This document shows positions 6,040 through 21,228 of a stretch of DNA of 64,000 bases, piece after piece; the stretch's first letter is position 1; every line of letters starts with the position of its first letter. This stretch comes from Microbacterium pumilum (lineage in GTDB: Bacteria > Actinomycetota > Actinomycetes > Actinomycetales > Microbacteriaceae), in NCBI RefSeq assembly GCF_039530225.1, contig NZ_BAAAOH010000001.1, forward strand, positions 2,046,001 through 2,110,000, read 5' to 3'. The position numbers and the translations under genes are program-made. Below the pieces are notes generated by a model, which saw nothing but the letters and a program-made list of their open reading frames with translations, was not told the DNA's origin and searched no databases.

Positions 6040-6162
6040 GGTCCGGGTTTCGCAGGCTCCACGTGCGGCGAACCTGCGAAACCAGGACCGGTGCCGGCAG
6101 GGGGTCTGCGCGGTCCGGATTCGCGGGTTCCGGATGCGGGGATCCTGCGAAACCAGGACCGG
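6040..6162. repeat. Two palindromic GGTCC...GGACC elements upstream of the DUF559 gene
   Basis: Two roughly 50-bp elements lie at 6040-6091 and 6112-6162, inside the 335-bp gap between add and the DUF559 gene. Each begins with GGTCCGG, has arms around GGTTTCGCAGG and CCTGCGAAACC, and ends AGGACCGG. In the first copy 16 of 17 arm bases pair. They belong to the same family as the array at 7244-7970. The rest of this gap (6163-6345) shows no ORF of its own and only a weak promoter candidate. A transcription-terminator role for the nucleoside operon is possible. Confidence 0.75.
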
Positions 6163-6345
6163 CCGCGCGTTGATGGCCTCTCCCCAGGGAGGGACGCGGC
6201 CAGACTCTCCACATCTCGGGACGCAGCCCTCCCGACCGTGAGGACTGCAGGGTGCACTTGTGGGGTGACAACTCGGCACTCCCCATTCGGCAGCGAGCCC
6301 TTCCGCGTCTCACGCGGTCTCGATGAGGGGGTGGGCCGAGGTGCG

Positions 6346-7203
6346 ATGAACGGGCCTCGATTCGATCGTCCGTTCCACGGAGTGCGCGTGTGGCGAAAGC
6401 CTGGCGACGAGGAAGACGATGCGAAGTCGCTTCAGCTGTCCCGGAGCGAACGCCGACGCCGCGCCTTCACGAATCGCTGCCGGCAGTTCGCCACGCGGAT
6501 GGGGCAGGCAGACTTCTTCAGTCACGATACGGCGCTGGTCCTCAGAGGCGCTCCGACCCCGACGAACTGGGACGAGGCCATTCACGTGTCAGGGATCAGA
6601 CCACGCAATCCTGCCCGCACGAGGAGCGTGACCTCTCACCGCCTTGCTTCGCGTCCAGCCGCTCACACCCTCGTCGGTGGCCTTCGAGTCGAACACGCGG
6701 CGCGCGCGTGGGTGCAGGCATCCGTGCATCTCTCGGACACCGAGCTGATCGTCGCGGCCGATTTCCTGGTGGCACGTCAGCGGCGACTGGCCACGATCGA
6801 TGAGCTGCGCGCCGAGGCTCAGCTGCGCAGGCCGAGGTTGGACTCGCTGATCGATCGGGTCCGGGACGCTTCGGAGTCGTCTCAGGAGACGAAACTGCGC
6901 CTCGCGCTGGTCGACGGTGGATTGCCGGAACCGCAGCTGGCCCATGAGCTGTATCAAGACGACGGGACATTCATCGCGCGTCTCGACCAGGCCTACCCCG
7001 AGTACCGCGTAGGCGTCGAGTACGACGGTCGCCAGCATGCTGAAGACGTACGGCAATTCGCGCGGGACGCGGACCGATGGCGCGAGATCGACGACGCCGG
7101 TTGGCAACTCGTACGAGTCCTGAAACACCACCTCGAGCCTGACCCCAGTCTCGCGGTGAAGCTCGTGCGCCGGGAACTGCTTCGTGCCGGGTGGCGCCCC
7201 TGA
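6346..7203 (+). CDS. DUF559 / AbiEi-like protein with a PD-(D/E)XK-type C-terminal domain
   Basis: A 285-residue protein of the DUF559 type common in Microbacteriaceae. Residues 1-130 resemble the DNA-binding front half of such proteins. Residues 176-283 form the endonuclease-like domain with E181, D214, the E225-Y-D-G-x-x-H231 motif, D241-x-x-R and a final AGWQLVRVL strand. The usual ExK lysine is not evident, so nuclease activity is uncertain. The ATG at 6346 was chosen; an in-frame GTG at 6331 with GAGGGG upstream is also possible. Third codon positions look less GC-rich than in neighbours, which suggests transfer. It is flanked on both sides by one family of palindromic repeats. Function unknown. 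Confidence 0.75.
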   Translation: MNGPRFDRPFHGVRVWRKPGDEEDDAKSLQLSRSERRRRAFTNRCRQFATRMGQADFFSHDTALVLRGAPTPTNWDEAIHVSGIRPRNPARTRSVTSHRLASRPAAHTLVGGLRVEHAARAWVQASVHLSDTELIVAADFLVARQRRLATIDELRAEAQLRRPRLDSLIDRVRDASESSQETKLRLALVDGGLPEPQLAHELYQDDGTFIARLDQAYPEYRVGVEYDGRQHAEDVRQFARDADRWREIDDAGWQLVRVLKHHLEPDPSLAVKLVRRELLRAGWRP

Positions 7204-7243
7204 CTCTCTCTTGCCCCTTACCTCTAGCCTCTTGGCCACGTTC

Positions 7244-7970
7244 GGTCCGGGTTTCGCACGCTCTGGATGCGGGGAGCCTGTGTTTCCTGGACCGGGCGGG
7301 GTCCCGCAGGCACGAGCTCATCGGGGCGGTCCGGGTTTCGCACGTTCTGGTTGCGGGGACCCTGTGCTTCCTGGACGGGGCGGGGTCCCGCAGGCACGAG
7401 CTCATCGGGGCGGTCCGGGTTTCGCACGCTCTGGATGGGGGGACCCTGTGTTTCCTGGACCGGGCGGGGTCCCGCAGGCACGAGCTCATCGGGGCGGTCC
7501 GGGTTTCGCACGTTCTGGTTGCGGGGACCCTGTGTTTCCTGGACCGGGCGGGGTCCCGCAGGCACGAGCTCATCGGGGCGGTCCGTGTTTCGCACGCTCT
7601 GGATGCGGGGAACCTGTGCTTCCTGGACCGGGCGGGGTCTCGCAGGCACGAGCTCCTCGGGTCGGTCCGTGTTTCGCACGCTCTGGATGCGGGGACCCTG
7701 TGCTTCCTGGACCGGGCGGGGTCCCGCAGGCACGAGCTCCTCGGGGCGGTCCGGGTTTCGCACGCTCTGGATGCGGGGAACCTGTGCTTCCTGGACCGGG
7801 CGGGATACCGCAGGCACGAGCTCCTCGGGGCGGTCCGGGTTTCGCACGCTCTGGATGCGGGGAACCTGTGCTTCCTGGACCGGACGGAGTTTCGCAGGCA
7901 CGAGCTCCTCGGGGCGGTCCGGGTTTCGCACGCTCTGGATGCGGGGATGGTGCGAAACCTGGACCGGACG
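7244..7970. repeat. Tandem array of nine 84-bp units containing a GGTTTCGCAC palindrome
   Basis: Units begin with GGTCCGGGTTTCGCAC (or close variants) at 7244, 7328, 7412, 7496, 7580, 7664, 7748, 7832 and 7916, an exact 84-bp period. The last unit is partial and keeps a complete hairpin: 15 of 16 bases pair between its start and GTGCGAAACCTGGACC. The unit length is a multiple of three, so reading frames stay open on both strands, but no codon bias, ribosome site or known domain supports translation. There are no unique spacers, so it is not CRISPR. It fills most of the 804-bp convergent gap between the DUF559 gene and the epimerase gene; nothing else was seen there. Confidence 0.92.
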
Positions 7971-8007
7971 GCGCCGAGGCGGGCGGGTGCGGATGCGGGC
8001 GGGCGGC

Positions 8008-8964
8008 CTAGCGGCGCGCGACGCCGGGATGCGTGTCGAGGTACGCCTCGAACGCCTCGGCCGAGGTCTTCACGGGGATGAAGCCGAAGTCGCGCTTCAG
8101 CGCGTCATTCGCGAGCACCGGGCGGTAGCGCAGGAAGCCGACCTGTTCCGGACCGTGGACCGTGAGGCGCAGCATCCGCCCGACTCGCAGCGCGAACGCG
8201 AGCACCCCGGCGGGGACGGTCAGCAGGGGCTTGCCGAGCCGGGCCGCGATCTCGCGGACTGTCAGCCGGCCGTCGCCGGCGACGTTGTAGATGCCCGCCG
8301 GGCCGTCGGTCGCGGCCCGCGCCATGGCGCCGGCGACGTCGTCGACCCAGATGAACACGAACGGCGACTCCGAGCTGCGGATCGCGAGGATTCGGCGACC
8401 GTCCCACAGCGCCGTGATCTGGTTCTGGACGGTGGGCCCGAGGATCGTGCCGATGCGGAACACCACCTGCTCGAGTTCGGGGTTCGTCTCGCGGTAGCCC
8501 GCGAGCATCTCCTCGACCAGCCGCTTGTGCCGCGAGTAGGGGAACTCGTCGCTCCCGCGCACCGGGTCGGATTCCCGAAGCCACTCGGGGCTGTCACGGT
8601 GGTAGCCGTAGGCCGCTCCGGATGACGAGACCACGATGCGCCGGACGCCCGCGGCGACACAGGCCTCGAGCACATGGCGGGTGCCCTCGACGTCGACGCG
8701 GTACTCGAGGTCGTGATCGCGTCCGGGGTTCACGATGGCGGCGAGGTGCACGACGACATCGATGCGGTGTCTTTCGAGCAGCGGCAGGATGCCGGTGGGC
8801 CGGGTGACGTCGCATTCCTCGTAGACCACGCCCTCGACCGGATGAGACGAGCGGCGCACGTCGCCGGCGACGACCAGGTCGACGCCCGGGTGCGCGACGA
8901 GGGCGGCCGTGACGTGCCAGCCCAGGAATCCCGCCCCGCCCGTGACGAGGACGCGAGCGCTCAC
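8008..8964 (-). CDS. NAD-dependent epimerase/dehydratase (extended SDR)
   Basis: A 318-residue extended short-chain dehydrogenase. The Rossmann motif GGAGFLG begins near residue 9, the NAG-like HLAA is near residue 72, and the catalytic pair is Y-x-x-x-K in FPYSRHK with Ser from VSSSGA. It probably acts on a nucleotide-sugar or small hydroxyl/keto substrate; the precise substrate cannot be read. The GTG at 8964 overlaps the preceding symporter gene by 4 bp, so it is the last gene of a three-gene coupled set (monooxygenase, symporter, SDR). Longer in-frame extensions upstream run antisense to nothing sensible and were rejected. Confidence 0.85.
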   Translation of the reverse strand: MSARVLVTGGAGFLGWHVTAALVAHPGVDLVVAGDVRRSSHPVEGVVYEECDVTRPTGILPLLERHRIDVVVHLAAIVNPGRDHDLEYRVDVEGTRHVLEACVAAGVRRIVVSSSGAAYGYHRDSPEWLRESDPVRGSDEFPYSRHKRLVEEMLAGYRETNPELEQVVFRIGTILGPTVQNQITALWDGRRILAIRSSESPFVFIWVDDVAGAMARAATDGPAGIYNVAGDGRLTVREIAARLGKPLLTVPAGVLAFALRVGRMLRLTVHGPEQVGFLRYRPVLANDALKRDFGFIPVKTSAEAFEAYLDTHPGVARR

Positions 8965-20371: not shown

Positions 20372-20523
20372 GCCGCGTCCATCGACCGGTGCTCGGCGGT
20401 CGGCGGTCCAGGAAGACCAGGATCTCGGCGCGAACAACCTGAGAATCCCGGACCGCGCCGCCCCCATCCTCGCGGTCGGACCAGCTCGGATCGGCTGAGC
20501 CGGGCGGGTACGTCAGCCTCGAG

Positions 20524-20648
20524 CTTCGACAAGCCTCGGACTCGACAGGATCAAGCTCGACAAGCCTCGGACTCGACAGGATCAGACTCGACAGGCTCAG
20601 ACTCGAGGGGCTCAGGCTTCGACGAGCTCAGGCTTCGACGAGCTCAGG
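20524..20648. repeat. Eight tandem copies of a 15-16 bp CTTCGACAGGCTCAG-like element
   Basis: Degenerate copies start at 20524, 20541, 20556, 20572, 20587, 20602, 20617 and 20633. Variants include CTTCGACAAGCCTCGG, CTCGACAGGATCAAG and CTTCGACGAGCTCAGG. The array fills the convergent gap between mtlR and the acetyltransferase gene, and its last copy supplies the TGA stop of the latter (TCA at 20644-20646 on the plus strand). One further copy is inserted in frame in the monooxygenase gene at 10971-10991. Confidence 0.8.
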
Positions 20649-21228
20649 CCCGCGCCAGGCGCTCGTGCAGACCCAGCCGCACGGCGGGCCACTCGTGGGG
20701 AAGGATCGAGAAGACGACGGTGTCGCGCAGCGTGCCATCCGGCCCGATCCGATGGTTTCGCAGCACGCCGTCCTGCTTGGCGCCGAGACGCGCGATCGCG
20801 TCGCGCGACTGCCGGTTGTGCCAGTGCGTGCGCAGCTCCACGGCGATGGCATCGCATGCCTCGAAGGCGTGTGTGAGAAGAAGCAGCTTCGCCGCGGTGT
20901 TGACCGCAGTCCGCTGCGCCTCGATGCCCAGCCAGGTGTGCCCGATCTCGACGTGGCGATTGGGCTGGTCGATGTTGCAGTAGGTGGTCATGCCGACCAG
21001 GCGACCGGTGTCGAGCCGGCGCACCGCCCACGGGTTCATCGATCCGGCCGCGTGCCACGCGAGCCGCTGCTCGATGTCGTCGCCCACTCCGTCGCCAGTC
21101 GGAACGGAGGTGTACCAGGCGTGCTCGAGCCCGATGGCGGCCTCGGCGAGCTGTTCCGCGTGATCGAGAGCCAGCGGCTCCAGTCGCACGTACGCGTTCT
21201 CGAGAGTGGCGGATTCGGTGAGCAGCAC
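20644..21228 (-). CDS. GNAT-family N-acetyltransferase (RimJ/RimL type)
   Basis: A 194-residue GNAT protein of the RimJ/RimL-like group. Residues 10-20 (ENAYVRLEPLAL) and HVEIGHTWLGIEAQRTAVNTAAK near 93-115 show the beta4-alpha3 acetyl-CoA site. Substrate could be a protein N-terminus or a small amine; it cannot be read. GTG at 21228 is 6 nt downstream of a TAGGCT box, so it may be leaderless, and that box contains the stop codon of the upstream MFS gene. The C-terminal stop comes from a repeat element. Confidence 0.87.
   Translation of the reverse strand: MLLTESATLENAYVRLEPLALDHAEQLAEAAIGLEHAWYTSVPTGDGVGDDIEQRLAWHAAGSMNPWAVRRLDTGRLVGMTTYCNIDQPNRHVEIGHTWLGIEAQRTAVNTAAKLLLLTHAFEACDAIAVELRTHWHNRQSRDAIARLGAKQDGVLRNHRIGPDGTLRDTVVFSILPHEWPAVRLGLHERLARA

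Follow-up and report, generated by a model that had tools for sequence, protein, structure and literature searches.

A nuclease gene of Microbacterium pumilum is bracketed by its own family of palindromes, and the association of gene and palindrome proved real and far more general than the initial annotation had proposed, recurring in all seven orthologs and, as an enrichment, across 80 named loci of the family and 61 loci in other genera. In most of the loci examined, a nuclease family that Pfam records chiefly as a domain of unknown function thereby gains a palindrome partner matched to it in sequence. The many natural protein-site pairs that result make it possible to test directly how specificity is encoded, what the repeats do and how they spread. 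At the level of sequence, the comparisons establish bracketing of the gene, matching of its two sides, co-variation of protein and palindrome, helical phasing, dispersed copies, one insertion, cassette replacement and conservation of the catalytic residues. The best overall explanation, to which we give an even chance, is that the nuclease binds its cognate palindromes, represses its own gene and spreads the palindromes.

The window (the whole stretch of 64,000 nucleotides analysed) is part of one 4.45-Mb chromosome. As first annotated, two palindromes lie upstream of the gene, at 6040-6089 (50 nt) and 6111-6160, and nine lie downstream, following one another in exact 84-bp steps between 7244 and 7965. 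All are on the plus strand and were matched by R1, a covariance model built from 19 palindrome copies, six of them from the window, such that recovery of these 11 gene-side copies is partly by construction. R1 scored the upstream copies at 64.6 bits and 59.8 bits (the latter at 6112-6160) and the downstream copies at 71.3 (7244-7293), 56.5 (7328-7377), 62.0 (7412-7461), 67.7 (7496-7545), 58.3 (7580-7629), 55.7 (7664-7713), 68.3 (7748-7797), 68.3 (7832-7881) and 65.6 bits (7916-7965). The downstream array as a whole (7243-7965) has a period corresponding to 8 helical turns and was reported by TRF as 7243-7947, with period 84 and 94% matches. One member of the family, described as GGTCC...GGACC palindromes, departs from this form in that the copy at 7328-7377 closes with GGACG. 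In place of the GAAA of a perfect arm, eight of the nine downstream copies carry GTTT or GCTT, and GAAA is present only in the last (7916-7965). Since 84 is divisible by 3, several reading frames stay open across the array, and the resulting long open frames at 7184-8011 and 7267-8625 are probably not genes.

Elsewhere in the window, the family is represented by a single dispersed copy on the minus strand at 20405-20454. This copy had been called a weak possible relative, but at 41.1 bits (E = 2.5e-7) it is a clear family member, and it was not among the sequences from which R1 was built. A 31/15-bp tandem repeat (20526-20649) lies about 70 bp from it. A single-arm pattern with up to three mismatches had 23 matches in the window versus 8.5 expected, a count that none of 100 shuffles reached; a chance origin was rejected by such shuffles and by the comparisons of intergenic gaps, control genes and control windows given below. 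Rfam returned no family at gathering scores over the window or over six loci, and a known RNA family was rejected on this basis.

The gene occupies positions 6265 to 7203 on the plus strand and encodes 312 amino acids. Its start had been placed at 6346; according to the family alignment, a GTG at 6265 is the most likely start, because relatives have in common the N-terminal stretch that begins there. Against Pfam, the protein matched REase_MTES_1575 (E = 1.4e-6, 28.7 bits, cut-off 38.2) and DUF559 (E = 1.3e-3, 19.0 bits, cut-off 20.6), in both cases below the curated gathering cut-off. REase_MTES_1575 was matched by all 22 aligned family members at E <= 0.1, and DUF559 by 18 of them. Among PADLOC models, the protein matched AbiEi (E = 1.7e-7). 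Its predicted structure had a pLDDT of 90.2, with AbiEi and I-Bth0305I among the fold matches listed; a profile search of PDB sequences gave three weak matches, which were taken as unrelated. The protein thus models as an AbiEi-type DNA-binding half (codons 1-200, 6265-6864, plus strand) followed by an EDxHD homing-endonuclease/Vsr-like half (codons 203-310, 6871-7194, plus strand), in which E208, D241, H258 and D268 are the predicted catalytic residues. Each of the four was kept in 80/80 proteins of the genus set, and in the set from the order they were kept in 61, 60, 61 and 59 of 61 proteins, respectively. Homologs in plasmid and phage records were few and partial, with 5 among 72,556 and 1 among 50,697, respectively.

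At least 37 R1 copies were found in the window's genome (G000), 11 at the gene and 26 at 12 other sites, including a weak one at 2739545 (E = 0.008); genome copy counts for R1, and for the R2 model described below, are lower bounds with both strands listed. The palindromes are therefore no curiosity local to the window, a reading that we rejected on these numbers. The statement that the family appears nowhere else stands inside the window, apart from 20405-20454, but fails for the genome, which holds at least 26 copies at 12 further sites, and, unlike in the initial picture of palindromes kept adjacent, most copies (26/37) lie away from the gene. Arrays in this genome mostly have a period of 83-85 bp, with a spacer sequence that differs from array to array. 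REase_MTES_1575 was matched at six places in the genome at E below 0.02, and among the R1 copies listed only the window gene was adjoined. Both flanks of the paralog at 431892 bear palindromes of its own that are unrelated. By contrast with the bracketed genes, the paralog at 2335198 (L041), one of three homologs detected in this genome, has downstream elements with no upstream match to them. Another short repeat, with 18/36-bp-type units around CAGCGACCG, seems recurrent in the same genome (L045 10077-10361, L043 10655-10736, L050 11566-11723 and L053 7193-7337).

Among 366 genomes of the genus, nine had R1 copies at E <= 1e-5 and seven, the window's included, had an ortholog with at least 67% identity (next best, 54%). 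All seven ortholog-bearing genomes were among the nine with R1 copies, and the remaining two, G318 and G360, carry R1 palindromes without a close ortholog. Taken alone, this co-occurrence could be explained by shared ancestry. Every one of the seven orthologs is bracketed by palindromes; R1 matches were weak in G192, G245 and G362 (best E per locus, 2.4e-6 to 1.5e-3) because the palindromes there have diverged. Downstream epimerase sequence is common to five of the seven orthologs, with a different gene in G233 and no match to the window at that place in G179. Six relatives were inspected for close relatives carrying the gene without repeats at the same site, and none was found.

Almost all of the named relatives belong to Microbacterium. 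Sequences at L216 (Planococcus sp. APC 4015) and L222 (Stenotrophomonas maltophilia P13) are also Microbacterium-like, and these contigs look mislabelled or contaminating. We analysed 80 named loci, the best 80 of 170 candidates retrieved with an alignment of 22 family proteins. Strict palindromes occurred at 1.35 per kb in the 250 bp immediately upstream of the gene and at 2.13 per kb in the 250 bp immediately downstream, and bins beyond 500 bp had 0-0.21 per kb. Within 600 bp, a strict palindrome was found upstream at 30, downstream at 37 and on both sides at 19 of the 80 loci. A 49-52-nt palindrome with a GTC box was present upstream at 55/80, downstream at 53/80 and on both sides at 41/80, and control windows located 1.2-1.8 kb off contained a 49-52-nt palindrome in 0/77 and 0/77 cases. 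The two flanks of a locus also matched each other: where both carried strict palindromes (19 loci), the median score was 56 versus 15 for cross-locus pairs, and the own pair was the best one in 15 cases. A flank-match score of 40 was reached by 71% of 78 target genes and by none of 47 control genes taken from these loci. In longer loci of 10-14 kb, 6 of 173 genes called by a crude GC3 gene caller reached this score, and five of the six are or overlap a nuclease gene.

Such counts bear on the reading that the palindromes are ordinary hairpins, that is, bidirectional terminators or generic REP-like repeats that are moved by an unrelated enzyme and lie beside the gene by chance or tolerance. Of the 12 non-gene R1 sites in the window's genome, five lie between convergent genes, as this reading would have it, and four lie inside a called ORF (crude GC3 gene caller). 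However, with the same crude caller, a palindrome was present in 61 of 146 intergenic gaps beside the gene and in only 6 of 107 other gaps in the same loci (p = 1.6e-11), on which grounds simple terminators were rejected. Y1 transposase (PF01797), positive in 5 of 14 control genomes, had no match in the window's genome, which speaks against a generic REP-like repeat and led us to reject a RAYT system. Given in addition that palindrome sequence tracks the protein, that length is nearly fixed at 50-51 nt and that spacing is helically phased (see below), we regard ordinary hairpins as a very improbable explanation.

The association reaches beyond the genus to other members of its order. When 297 genomes of the order were searched with a profile, the family was detected in 157 of them, representing 49 of 94 genera. 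The order-level set of 61 loci comprised 21 non-Microbacterium loci and 40 regions taken down the match table with their flanks unseen when picked, Microbacterium rows and rows further down the table being left out. At these loci, strict palindromes occurred at 1.55 per kb upstream, 1.45 per kb downstream and 0.017 per kb beyond 500 bp, and were found upstream at 32, downstream at 31 and on both sides at 24 of the 61. Flank-to-flank similarity exceeded the 99th percentile of mismatched pairs at 48/61 loci, 13 of which had no strict palindrome, and fell short of it at the other 13. The palindrome sequences themselves were quite unlike those of Microbacterium.

Palindrome sequence follows the protein and not the chromosomal neighbourhood. 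Over the 72 loci with usable arms, arm similarity tracked protein identity (Mantel r = 0.64, 0/2000 permutations). At the chromosomal site shared by many loci (see below), where 43 had arms, the partial correlation given flank identity was 0.55 (0/1000 permutations), and that of flank identity given protein was -0.08. The two arms of TGTCCCA-type palindromes also change jointly, with 79 double-change cells versus 31.7 in shuffled and 13-31 in slid controls. In a search spanning 48-60 nt, palindromes of this type were 50 or 51 nt long in all rows but one, in a listing where some loci are one place fetched twice (e.g., L110 and L256).

Centre-to-centre distances between neighbouring palindromes favoured multiples of 10.5 bp (R = 0.64, phase -0.4 bp, Rayleigh p = 3e-8) in a set of 83 spacings, duplicates included, thinned to 42 non-homologous spacers. 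None of 20,000 uniform draws was as high, and 10.25 bp fits about equally. Out-of-phase spacings were seen in G179, at 9.5 and 10.5 turns, and at L262, at 12.5 turns. Dispersed arrays of G057 (contigs C3, C4, C5, C9 and C10) have a 63-bp period, or 6 turns, versus about 84 bp (8 turns) mostly in the window's genome, and the array period looks genome-specific. Spacing in whole helical turns suggests that duplex DNA is bound on one face. In place of the hairpin initially put forward, duplex DNA is the target suggested, if indirectly, by the phasing and by the AbiEi-like half. We consider it highly probable from these sequence patterns that the protein binds its palindrome. A pair of protein molecules would sit on each 50-60-bp palindrome as a duplex, one molecule per arm, through the AbiEi-like half, and palindromes lying whole helical turns apart would be bound on one helix face. 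Binding to the upstream palindromes would probably repress the gene in the manner of AbiEi, and self-repression through these copies seems to us somewhat better than an even bet.

Repression could also be the whole story. Under this serious rival, which we nonetheless hold to be unlikely, the palindromes are AbiEi-type operators, of which those upstream repress the gene, those downstream help by looping or end the transcript and the dispersed ones serve other regulatory targets, while the nuclease half acts elsewhere (e.g., on invading DNA) and has no role in spread. The AbiEi fold favours such autoregulation and helical phasing suits cooperative repressors. Moreover, AbiEi and Rv2827c are both described as repressing their own promoters through inverted repeats, AbiEi binding two 23-bp repeats 3 bp apart and Rv2827c having repeat pairs 13 bp apart (PMC7319586 and PMC3943268, which jointly also cover the I-Bth0305I site below). 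These published pairs sum to sites of 49 and 59 bp, alike in length to the palindromes. By itself, however, autoregulation leaves unexplained the matching downstream elements (53/80) and nine-copy arrays, as well as the palindrome-only insertion and the large dispersed sets reported next.

R2 was built from 51-nt palindromes matching TGTCCCA...TGGGACA only, which makes its outer seven pairs invariant by construction. It had matches in 10 of 20 genomes, from 2 to at least 123 per genome with both strands counted, and none in the other ten. Among the matches listed, R2 pairs flank a nuclease gene on both sides in G008, G032 and G054, R2 is found at several other sites in G008, G018, G054 and G057, and in G035 the R2 sites lie apart from all three nuclease-family genes. 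At site 3327503 of the window's genome, the flanks are also present in three relatives that have no palindrome between them, corresponding to a clean insertion of about 55 nt. This was the one clean insertion among nine dispersed G000 sites examined; the rest were ragged, had a flank missing or differed by 1.2-1.7 kb, and no target duplication was seen at the dispersed sites examined. Empty-site comparison at L043, L044, L045 and L047 found one flank or neither, or flanks far apart, and R1 had no match at E <= 1 in 16 relative regions spanning six G000 sites. With the exception of the gene site, no array site fetched for G000 coincided with one fetched for G052 or G179. A flank of one G000 site recurs at arrays of both G192 and G360, and a site of G052 corresponds to one of G179. 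At two single-palindrome sites, L049 6846-6895 and L051 6018-6067 (G000 1047845 and 680017, respectively), the relatives whose flanks were located carry about 1.2-1.7 kb more sequence in the corresponding interval, G179 being the exception at L051. It looks as though the palindrome marked the place of gene loss in the window's genome.

Copying of palindromes through cutting is suggested by the nuclease fold, the one clean insertion and the dispersed sets. Nicks or cuts in the palindromes or close to them, once repaired by copying, would probably place palindromes at new intergenic sites. From the sequences at hand, cutting at the palindrome seems to us evenly balanced, and spread driven by the AbiEi-EDxHD protein falls just short of that.

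Movement of whole cassettes was evident at a site between prolyl oligopeptidase and phosphofructokinase genes, which is shared by 48 of the 80 loci, with 23 in one orientation versus 25 in the other. One switch of orientation is forced by well-supported branches, and two are most parsimonious. Identity of flanks and identity of proteins part ways here: L242 and L265 have flanks that are 95.2% identical and proteins that are 69% identical, and L258 and L265, in opposite orientation, have 91.2% and 58%, respectively, with L242 and L245 at 91.3% and 98%. Inversion between palindromes was dropped as an explanation, the inverted cassette being far more divergent than its flanks, and replacement fits better. 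In swapped cassettes, homology stops at the neighbours' stop codons and not at the palindromes. The exchange therefore need not involve the palindromes, and ordinary recombination in the flanks could explain it, although cutting and repair copying may aid the mutual replacement of gene-plus-palindrome cassettes at fixed chromosomal sites.

The exchange of divergent cassettes between flanks 91-95% identical is also what would be expected of a defence or selfish restriction-like locus, with a nuclease directed at foreign DNA, palindromes that serve for control or protection and cassettes swapped under diversifying selection; the AbiEi models, moreover, belong to PADLOC, a library of defence proteins. 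Yet dN/dS was 0.10-0.15 in eight pairs of family genes, and selection is therefore purifying rather than diversifying overall. Neighbours scanned at two sites, the window and L258, were A_deaminase, Epimerase, FMO-like, Peptidase_S9, PFK and SNF2 in Pfam, among which the adenosine deaminase, epimerase, prolyl oligopeptidase and PFK are housekeeping families, and no methylase or toxin partner was among these few genes. We consider a defence locus improbable.

The reading that we prefer, of binding, self-repression and spread, may also be cast more broadly: tentatively, and with somewhat less confidence, AbiEi-EDxHD nucleases of Actinomycetes may form a new palindrome-moving class whose members recognise their own 50-60-bp duplex palindrome, cut, copy it genome-wide and swap cassettes at fixed sites. 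The Pfam family names DUF559 and REase_MTES_1575 give no function and no repeat partner, and among the papers listed from an open-access library, judged by titles and the starts of abstracts, neither DUF559 nor AbiEi-DUF559 was tied to palindromes; this points to an undescribed partnership of enzyme and repeat.

Despite its AbiEi-like and EDxHD-like halves, the system does not qualify as a standard toxin-antitoxin pair or as a homing endonuclease of an intron. It resembles the AbiEi/Rv2827c autorepressors of type IV toxin-antitoxin systems in the fold of residues 1-200 and in the length of the paired site, but its protein is fused to a nuclease and its palindromes lie on both sides of the gene and are dispersed; scans of the adjoining genes at two sites, the window and L258, showed no DUF1814 toxin gene. 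With I-Bth0305I and Vsr it shares the catalytic fold and the E-D-x-H-D residue order, and with I-Bth0305I, described as dimerising on nearly 60 bp, it would share a long dimeric DNA target. Unlike these, the gene is free-standing and chromosomal, located between housekeeping genes and not in an intron, and intact palindromes flank it, rather than a target split by the gene. Repeat palindromes are found in numerous bacteria, those known best being tied to the enzyme RAYT (PMC3733652, PMC3116915); the REPs are described as 20-40 bp long with a GTAG (or CGTC) end tag (PMC3733652). The CGTC-tagged REPs of alpha-proteobacteria, said to have no dedicated transposase (Di Nocera 2013, PMC3733652), are likewise palindromic repeats, but have short stems of 8-9 bp and belong to another phylum. 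As in RAYT/REP systems, the enzyme gene adjoins its cognate palindromes and non-autonomous copies are dispersed between genes. Unlike in those systems, the gene has other domains in place of a Y1/HUH enzyme, the palindromes are about 50-60 nt (about 50 in Microbacterium) versus 20-40 nt, their ends are GGTCC or TGTCCCA and not a GTAG (or CGTC) tag, and their helically phased spacing points to duplex recognition. In its workings the system parallels RAYT/REP, yet it lies outside that group, having no Y1 enzyme and another repeat size and other tags. If the proposed class is real, relatives of the nuclease might provide the enzyme that other orphan palindrome families lack, and the system would be a RAYT/REP counterpart made of a toxin-antitoxin-type repressor and a homing-type nuclease.
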